Source of the DNA: Terriglobia bacterium | GTDB taxonomy: Bacteria; Acidobacteriota; Terriglobia; JAIQFV01 | NCBI GenBank assembly: GCA_020073085.1 | Contig: JAIQFV010000001.1 | Coordinates: 124,001 to 188,000 of the forward strand | Direction: 5' to 3' | Length of the DNA stretch: 64,000 nt | Shown here: positions 50,303 through 53,309 of the stretch, piece by piece | How the letters are laid out: every line of letters begins with the position of its first letter | How positions within the stretch are numbered: position 1 is the first letter of the stretch | Translations under genes and position numbers: made by a program | Notes under the pieces: model-generated | Seen by the model: the letters and a program-made list of their open reading frames with translations, nothing else | Databases searched by the model: none | Told to the model about the DNA's origin: nothing

Positions 50303-50331
50303 ATTATAGACATGGCCCTCTCGACGGTCAA
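50303..50331 (-). promoter_or_regulatory. Strong sigma-70 promoter of the sucC operon
   Basis: On the minus strand TTGACC (50326-50331), a 17-bp spacer and perfect TATAAT (50303-50308). It lies back to back with the guaB promoter, with 10 bp between the two -35 elements. Confidence 0.85.
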
Positions 50332-50341
50332 GGTAAGCGTC

Positions 50342-50370
50342 TTGACATTCCCGGGCACCTTCTCTAGAAT
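50342..50370 (+). promoter_or_regulatory. Strong sigma-70 promoter of guaB
   Basis: Perfect TTGACA (50342-50347), a 17-bp spacer and TAGAAT (50365-50370). Transcription would start near 50377, leaving a leader of about 175 bases before the guaB ATG. Confidence 0.85.
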
Positions 50371-50428
50371 TCCACATGGTATTTCGCGCCAGAAAATTTA
50401 TTTGGCTTCTTCGAGCGATGACGCTCCC

Positions 50429-50460
50429 AACCCGTCCCATGAAATGGGCCGGGTTTTTTT
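50429..50460 (+). terminator. Intrinsic terminator inside the guaB leader
   Basis: AACCCG-T-CCCAT pairs across a GAA loop with ATGGG-C-CGGGTT, and a run of seven T follows. It begins about 50 bases after the predicted start and ends about 90 bases before the guaB ATG. A small hairpin GAGCG-ATGA-CGCTC lies just upstream. The only plus-strand transcript here is that of guaB itself, so it either attenuates guaB or ends a short independent RNA of about 85 bases. Confidence 0.8.
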
Positions 50461-50552
50461 GTTAGGGGGGGGCCGCCGTACGCGGGACGCCCCGATCCCG
50501 TTTCCAGCGGGAGGGGCAAGGAGGAGCCATTGACCCTTTACCAGGAGCCTAA

Positions 50553-52016
50553 ATGCTAGCTGACAGAGTGTACGAAGCACTTACATTTGATGATGTTTTA
50601 TTGCTTCCCCTGCGAACGTCCGTTTTGCCCACCGAAGCACAGACCACCACCCTGATTTCCCGTCACATCAAACTGAACATCCCGATTGTCAGTGCGGCCA
50701 TGGATACGGTCACCGAAGCCCGTCTCGCCATCGCGCTCGCCCAGCAAGGCGGGATCGGGATTGTCCATCGGAACATGCCCGTGGAACGCCAGGCCAGTGA
50801 AGTGGACAAGGTGAAACGATCGGAAAGCGGGATGATCGTTGATCCCATTACGACCACGCCGGACAAGAAAATCTCCGATGCCCTGGAAATCATGCAGCAT
50901 TATAAGATTTCGGGGGTCCCCGTCACGGACAAGTCCGGGACACTGGTGGGCATCCTCACGAACCGCGATCTCCGGTTTGAAACACACCTCGACCGGCCCA
51001 TCAGCGAGGCCATGACCAAGCGCAACCTCATCACGGTTCCGGTGGGCACGACACTCGACCAAGCGGAAGAGAAATTGCATCAGCATCGAGTAGAAAAGCT
51101 GCTCGTGGTCGACAAGAATTACAAGCTGAAGGGGCTCATTACCGTCAAGGACATTCAGAAGAAGATCCAGTATCCGAACTCCGCGAAGGATACGCAGGGC
51201 CGTCTGCGTGTGGGCGCCGCCATTGGCGCCACGGGGGATTTCGTGGAGCGGGCCACGGAGCTGGTTCGGTCCAAGGTCGACCTGCTGGTCATTGACACGG
51301 CGCACGGGCATTCGGAGAGGGTTCTTCAGGCTGTGAAGACCATCAAGAAACGGTTCCCGTCGGTCGATCTCGCTGCGGGCAACATTGCCTCCGCCCAAGC
51401 CGCACGGGATTTGATTCGCCTGGGGGTCGATGCCATCAAAGTCGGCATTGGCCCGGGGTCCATCTGCACCACGCGCATCGTCACCGGCGTGGGGGTTCCG
51501 CAGATCACCGCGATCACAGCCTGTGCCGGCGTGGCGCACAAGGCCGGGGTTCCTCTGATTGCGGATGGTGGAATCAAATTTTCAGGGGACATCACGAAAG
51601 CGCTGGCAGCAGGGGCGAACGCGGTCATGATCGGAAGCCTGTTCGCGGGCACCGACGAAAGCCCCGGAGAAACGATTCTCTTTCAAGGCCGAAGCTTCAA
51701 ATCCTACCGTGGCATGGGATCCCTGAACGCCATGCAATTGGGATCGGGCGACCGCTATGCCCAGGAGCGCACGAGCGGGAAGGAAATGATTGCGGAGGGC
51801 GTTGAAGGACGCGTCCCTCACAAGGGACCGCTTGCATCCATGGTTCATCAATTGGTGGGTGGACTGAAATCAGGGATGGGGTACTGCGGGGCAAAGACTT
51901 TATCGGAATTGCACCGCAAGACGAAGTTCATCCGCATCACGTCCGCAGGGCTCCGCGAGAGCCACGTTCATGATGTCATCATTACCAAGGAAGCTCCCAA
52001 CTACCAGTTGGATTAG
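50553..52016 (+). CDS. guaB: Inosine-5'-monophosphate dehydrogenase
   Basis: Rate-limiting enzyme of GMP synthesis, 487 residues. The barrel has [12 protein letters not shown], the catalytic Cys loop [19 protein letters not shown], the [17 protein letters not shown] phosphate site and the flap SSRGMGSL-type [11 protein letters not shown]. Two CBS domains occupy about residues 90-205, able to bind purine nucleotides. The leader terminator suggests premature termination as a level of control. Confidence 0.97.
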
Positions 52017-52088: not shown

Positions 52089-53309
52089 TCACACCCCGAG
52101 CGCGTCCGCGAGCTCACGGACAAATAACTCGGCGTCGGTCACCAGGCCCAGGGCCTGGAAGGTCCCGCGGTCCGCCAGTTTGGTAACCACGGCAGGGTTG
52201 ATATCCACAGCGACCACCTTCACCGAGGCCGGCAACATGTTGCCAGTCGCAATGGAGTGGAGCATCGTGGCGATCATCAGGACCATCTCAACGCCCTGAA
52301 CAGCGGCCCGCATCTGACGCTGGGCCAGTCCCATGTCAACGATGACATCGGGGAGGGGCCCGTCGTCGCGGACCGAACCGGCCAGCACCAGTTCGACGTG
52401 ATGACGGATGCATTCATACATGATCCCTTCCTTGAGAATACCCGCCTCCACTGCTTTCCGAAGTGAGCCGGCCCGCCGGATCGTATTGATGGCCACCATG
52501 TGATGGCGGTGTCCGCCTTCAATCGGCTGCCCGCTGTGCAGGGCGACGCCGAGCGAGGTGCCGAGAAGGGCCCCCTCCACATCATGAGCGGCAATTGCGT
52601 TTCCCCCGAACAAGACCTGCACAAATCCCGCCCGGATCATGCGCGCCAGAAACGACGCTGCCCCGCTGTGGACGACCGCGGGACCGGCGACCACCAGGAT
52701 CTTCCCCCCATGCGCCCGCGTCTCCCGCATCTGCTTGGCGATCTCTTCGATGACCAGGCGCTTCGGTTTTTCCGGCGACACGTCGCTCGCCATGAAGGAG
52801 AAGATTTCACGCTCCCGGGAACGCTGCAGCGGAATGACCCGGATCCCCTCGTGTCCCACAACCACGGCCTCATCCTTGCGCACCTCGGCCATCGGCATCA
52901 TGTGAGCCCGCGAGTGGGCCCGGTCAACCACAATCGCCAGGTCCATCTCCGTCCGCGTGACATCCACCCAAACGCCATTCAACCTGACCTGAGTCGGGAA
53001 ATGCGTGGTGGAGTAGAAATCGTCGGGGAGCCCACCGTCACAAGGGGCGGCCTCGGTGCGGACATCCTCCCGCGACACCAGCACCGCCCCGTAATCCTGC
53101 AGGGCCGTTAAAATGCGCTGCAACTGCACATCGCTGTCGGCGGTGATCTTAAGCCGGGCGAAGGAGGTTTCATCCTTGTGCCGGCCCACCCGAATCTCCT
53201 GTAAATCGAATGTGCCTCCCAGATCCATCACCGCATCAAACACCCGGGGAAGGATCCACGAGTCGATAATGTGACCTTCCAACGTAATCTCTTCGCTAAA
53301 TTCAGCCAT
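52089..53309 (-). CDS. TIGR00300 / LOR-SDH family protein (possible ornithine cyclodeaminase)
   Basis: A 406-residue protein of the LOR/SDH bifunctional conserved domain family. The N-terminal 80 residues (EEITLEGHIIDSWILPRVFD) are the LOR-type domain; the larger C-terminal part binds NAD in a Rossmann-like fold (KILVVAGPAVVHSGAASFLA, VLFGGNAIAAHDVEGALLGTSLG). The GGHRHHMVAINTIRRAGS segment is highly conserved in the family. Archaeal members are reported as ornithine cyclodeaminases and the cyanobacterial ArgZ/AgrE carries this domain after an arginine dihydrolase domain, absent here. It converges on guaB with a 72-bp gap holding the palindrome GTGTCCGGACAC. Confidence 0.85.
   Translation of the reverse strand: MAEFSEEITLEGHIIDSWILPRVFDAVMDLGGTFDLQEIRVGRHKDETSFARLKITADSDVQLQRILTALQDYGAVLVSREDVRTEAAPCDGGLPDDFYSTTHFPTQVRLNGVWVDVTRTEMDLAIVVDRAHSRAHMMPMAEVRKDEAVVVGHEGIRVIPLQRSREREIFSFMASDVSPEKPKRLVIEEIAKQMRETRAHGGKILVVAGPAVVHSGAASFLARMIRAGFVQVLFGGNAIAAHDVEGALLGTSLGVALHSGQPIEGGHRHHMVAINTIRRAGSLRKAVEAGILKEGIMYECIRHHVELVLAGSVRDDGPLPDVIVDMGLAQRQMRAAVQGVEMVLMIATMLHSIATGNMLPASVKVVAVDINPAVVTKLADRGTFQALGLVTDAELFVRELADALGV

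Follow-up and report, generated by a model that had tools for sequence, protein, structure and literature searches.

The guaB gene of a genome from a soil lineage of Acidobacteria is preceded by a conserved leader RNA of ~85 nt that ends at an intrinsic terminator, and we think it probable that this leader behaves as UpsM of Rhodobacter sphaeroides does, with most transcripts stopping as a short, possibly trans-acting RNA and guaB being made by readthrough. The guaB product commits purines to guanine nucleotides, and the GTP pool determines both growth rate and the stringent response; guanine riboswitches account, to our knowledge, for most of what is known of guaB control at the RNA level. 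A conserved, terminated guaB leader in the Acidobacteriota offers a defined ~85-nt RNA that is open to direct testing, in a phylum in which hardly any of the predicted attenuators has been given a function (PMC2965389).

The leader lies in a window of 64,000 nucleotides, the whole stretch of DNA that was analyzed, from a 5.8-Mb draft genome (G000). It was compared with two metagenome-assembled Terriglobia genomes, one of the same genus (G001, JAIQFY010000002.1) and one of the same family (G002, JAQUPQ010000038.1), so that the comparison within the order comprises three genomes, one relative being very close, and covariation is only suggestive. Each genome contains a single match to the IMP dehydrogenase gene, and guaB (50553-52016, plus strand; TIGR01302, 629.7 bits against a cut-off of 481.5) is the sole copy in G000.

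A σ70-type promoter with 11 of 12 consensus matches, TTGACA-17-TAGAAT, is found at 50342-50370 on the plus strand, where the initial annotation had placed a near-consensus promoter; its hexamers are identical in G001 and read TTGACA-18-TACAAT in G002. This promoter probably drives the leader RNA and guaB as well. Transcription is predicted to start at A50376, five bases past the −10 box, which would give a transcript of ~85 nt to the end of the T run. Alignment and folding place a conserved, mostly unpaired 5′ segment at 50376-50412 (AUGGnAUUnCG..AAAUUUAUU..UCnUC), followed by a hairpin, P2, at 50413-50426 (GAGCG-AUGA-CGCUC). The 3′ end of the RNA is formed by an intrinsic terminator at 50429-50460 that was recognized by fold, pattern and shuffles: a hairpin of −15.0 kcal/mol at 50429-50455 (AACCCG-U-CCCAU-GAA-AUGGG-C-CGGGUU), seven T at 50454-50460 and then 92 nt to guaB, which bears out the earlier claim of a strong hairpin plus seven T about 90 bases ahead of the gene. 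In the predicted fold of the whole leader, a weak and unconserved 5′ stem precedes P2 and the terminator hairpin, the latter running into the T7 tract, and this fold is better than that of 196 of 200 shuffles. Alignment also defines a poorly conserved spacer (50461-50519) between the terminator and the ribosome-binding region of guaB, and the 33 nt before the gene (50520-50552), with the Shine-Dalgarno sequence AGGAG at 50543-50547, are again conserved.

All three genomes of the order retain the promoter, the RNA and the terminator as a set ahead of guaB. In an ungapped alignment the leader RNA of G000 is identical to that of G001 at 72 of 78 positions (92%) and to that of G002 at 49 of 78 (63%), compared with 67% and 38%, respectively, at fourfold-degenerate sites of guaB, an excess with binomial probabilities of 9e-8 (G001) and 6e-6 (G002). 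All of the G001 differences within the RNA body fall in loops or unpaired positions, none of them in P2 or the terminator stem. In G002 the pairing of both hairpins is retained with changed bases, as P2 is found at the same place with pairs of the type GAGCUU-UGA-AGGCUC and the terminator reads AACCCGC-CCCU-UGA-AGGG-A-GCGGGUU. The hairpin on whose conservation the initial annotation had staked its reading is therefore kept, with its inner pairs changed, in three of three genomes. The first 41 nt of the RNA, which are largely unpaired, are identical at 28 of 41 positions in G002, and the spacer from 50461 to ~50519 has diverged and acquired indels. Since identity in the RNA is far above the fourfold rates and pairing is kept while the spacer has diverged, we conclude that selection acts on the RNA as a whole.

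Pattern scans, which do not cover unusual promoters, revealed no promoter-like site in the stretch from the terminator to guaB, either in the window or in G002, and G001 contains there only a 9/12 site that overlaps the start codon and would be of no use. As guaB has a visible promoter ahead of the terminator and no useful one was seen behind it, the simplest reading is that mostly short RNA is made and that a minority of transcripts continues into guaB; it is only because of this lack of a visible downstream promoter that full guaB expression is taken to need readthrough. RNA polymerase would start at the 50342-50370 promoter, and most transcripts would end near 50460 to yield a stable RNA of ~85 nt composed of the unpaired 5′ segment, a hairpin, the terminator hairpin and a U tail. 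The guaB mRNA would be the minority fraction that reads through the terminator, so guaB output would be tied to the leader promoter and to the efficiency of termination, and the short RNA may also act in trans.

The proven case of such a layout of promoter, RNA, terminator and gene is UpsM, a 5′-leader-derived small RNA of the dcw cluster in Rb. sphaeroides (PMC5089854). Both systems consist of a promoter, a short RNA and an intrinsic terminator followed by an essential gene, UpsM having no other start site and guaB no other visible promoter, and they share a small open frame across the terminator and conservation in one bacterial family (PMC5089854). The UpsM-type succession of a promoter and then an intrinsic terminator inside a gene leader is kept in the three genomes, so the guaB leader adds a new instance to a known type of layout, in which a leader RNA is made by premature termination. 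There are also differences, as UpsM covers 206 nt before mraZ compared with 85 nt before guaB and has a possible fold competing with its terminator, whereas the guaB leader has none; in addition, transcription, Hfq binding and ~1% readthrough are proven for UpsM but are predictions for the guaB leader. Other 5′ UTR-derived small RNAs, such as ChiZ and IspZ of Escherichia coli, arise from premature termination and were found by 3′-end mapping (PMC7815308). Like these, the guaB leader would yield a short RNA from an mRNA leader that may be able to act in trans; ChiZ and IspZ have been characterized as sponges, whereas the guaB leader RNA is a prediction from sequence.

Several features of the RNA fit a role of this kind. 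An hfq gene is encoded in all three genomes (97 bits), and the layout of an Hfq-dependent small RNA is present: an unpaired 5′ seed, a hairpin and a terminator with a U tail. In a genome that encodes hfq, the conserved unpaired 5′ segment and the U tail suggest that the short RNA may also act in trans. With its conservation in the unpaired 5′ segment and two hairpins, the element has more the look of a small RNA doubling as the guaB leader. Predicted pairing of the RNA with the starts of guaB and sucC, the two starts tried, was no better than that of shuffles. A short terminated RNA that adjoins guaB, Yfr1, is known from cyanobacteria (PMC1242208), and was rejected as a counterpart since it lies downstream of guaB and before trxA, has its own start and shows no sequence likeness.

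A regulated attenuator, in which termination follows the supply of guanine nucleotides through the leader itself or through a factor on its conserved 5′ segment and the short RNA is a mere by-product, is possible with no visible switch, and we hold it to be unlikely while giving it serious weight. This assessment includes the candidate factors that could control the terminator from the 5′ segment, namely a protein or, as in pyrBI-type control, a ribosome on the frame that begins with the +1 AUG. The strict association of the leader with guaB in the three genomes speaks for such control, as does an AUG that lies five bases past the −10 box in each of them; its frame, which in G000 begins at 50376, crosses the terminator and stops at 50463, is open across the terminator in all three (29, 50 and 46 codons), and some G000 genes have a −10 box ~6 nt before their ATG. 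Premature hairpins ahead of guaB in an unrelated lineage, described below, also favor it. The conservation of residues in the leader frame is, however, no better than expected from random placement of the changes (p 0.10-0.60), so a leader peptide under protein-level selection is unsupported by the substitution pattern.

Nor does the leader contain an alternative fold that competes with the terminator. No antiterminator was found, as upstream partners give the 5′ arm of the terminator at most 2.7 kcal/mol compared with 15-19 kcal/mol for the terminator itself, and no replacement helix forms when the terminator is blocked in folding; a fold-switching attenuator or riboswitch was thus set aside. 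A known riboswitch was likewise rejected, as no Rfam family, the purine (guanine) riboswitch included, matched the leader at the gathering score, in agreement with the initial annotation, which had recognized no purine riboswitch consensus; relaxed thresholds gave only two meaningless matches. The xpt-pbuX-guaB-guaA operon of Staphylococcus aureus, for example, is preceded by a guanine riboswitch (PMC2858708), and resembles the present case in having a leader RNA ahead of an operon containing guaB, but the leader described here has neither a purine-riboswitch match nor a switching fold and belongs to a different phylum. The earlier proposal of either an attenuator or a separate RNA of about 85 bases therefore loses attenuation by an RNA switch, there being no competing pairing, and keeps both of its general readings. 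A combined view, in which the promoter yields both a trans-acting small RNA and, linked to it, guaB made by controlled readthrough, and the ratio of the two reports guanine nucleotide supply via a factor on the unpaired 5′ segment, would be a previously undescribed control of guaB, and we offer it as a speculation with little chance of being right in full.

It is also conceivable, and in our judgement slightly more doubtful still, that an independent small-RNA gene merely adjoins guaB, which would be transcribed from its own unrecognized, weak or unusual promoter within 50461-50552. In favor of this, the RNA forms a complete unit of its own, and the mostly unconserved spacer is followed by 33 conserved nucleotides, identical in G001 (chance 1.5e-6 at the fourfold rate of 67%), an identity that exceeds the needs of a Shine-Dalgarno sequence, so this stretch could hold more than a ribosome site. 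Against this stand the adjacency to guaB in three of three genomes and a spacer in which no promoter-like site is seen in these genomes, save the useless one in G001.

A chance or relic terminator without present function is very improbable, since dinucleotide shuffling of the divergent intergenic region produced a hairpin of −15 kcal/mol or stronger with T6 in only 13 of 3000 cases and constraint is strong across the three genomes, even though a looser terminator pattern alone is not above the shuffled expectation (3 found, 3.3 expected). It cannot serve as the terminator of an upstream gene, as sucC runs in the opposite direction. A strict hairpin-plus-T5 pattern occurs at 46 sites in 800 kb of G000 (contigs C1 and C2), many of them within genes, and of these the guaB leader terminator alone clearly falls between an upstream gene that is divergent and a downstream gene on its own strand, gene classes in this census being approximate because they derive from a simple, purpose-made codon-usage caller. 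One more site in the 800 kb qualifies formally; it is the weaker of the two and sits at the edge of a gene called on the opposite strand. Strict terminators are so sparse that this lineage would seem to end most of its transcripts by other means.

The leader RNA is restricted to one poorly sampled order. A search of 399 genomes of the class with the leader model (R1) found no homolog in the 396 further genomes (other matches had E values of 0.3-0.8), and BLAST found no second copy in the three genomes, where the other matches were short and those read were due to chance, mostly in coding sequence. In other Acidobacteriota guaB is often found behind secA or with a short leader of its own. Across guaB upstream regions of many phyla, 9 of 69 contain a candidate terminator: three represent the leader RNA of the G000 type, four an actinobacterial leader, and the remaining two are L035, rejected because its terminator lies directly behind secA, and L053, rejected as weak. 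With so few regions, of mixed kinds, a terminator before guaB was dismissed as a general trait.

The four actinobacterial candidates (L048, L054, L061 and L064) carry a second promoter-hairpin-guaB leader, of a Thermoleophilia kind, that is unrelated to the G000 leader and has no sequence in common with it. Examples are found at 4817-4930 of L048, 1362-1475 of L054 and 4817-4930 of L061, and also in L064, L183, L184, L186 and others. A model built from nine of these leaders matches 20 of 399 genomes of that actinobacterial class, most matches lying shortly upstream of an IMP dehydrogenase reading frame, with the downstream motif unconfirmed in several and one match, L202, possibly misplaced. 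The elements follow the order of an extended −10 (TGnTAnnAT), CUUGARAG, a hairpin, UUUUUGC or UUCGUGC, and AAGGGG just before guaB, and the hairpin GCCCAGGCGACC-N4-GGCGCCUGGGC hardly varies, even in leaders with an interrupted T run. The four loci tested had no Rfam match, and this leader is a candidate new cis-regulatory RNA that would act as a terminator in only some of the genomes. As judged from these predicted structures, leader hairpins before guaB occur in more than one phylum.

The upstream neighbor sucC (50246-49062) is oriented away from guaB, and the two form a divergent pair in all three genomes. A promoter for sucC, TTGACC-17-TATAAT, at 50303-50331 on the minus strand, is kept in G001, and none was seen in G002. 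Its −35 box and that of the leader promoter lie back to back ~10 bp apart (50303-50370), a layout present in G001 and absent in G002, and at this predicted spacing two RNA polymerases could hardly bind at the same time. Beyond guaB, and convergent with it, 52089-53309 encodes an ornithine cyclodeaminase of the nickel-pincer nucleotide-dependent kind (TIGR00300, 547 bits).
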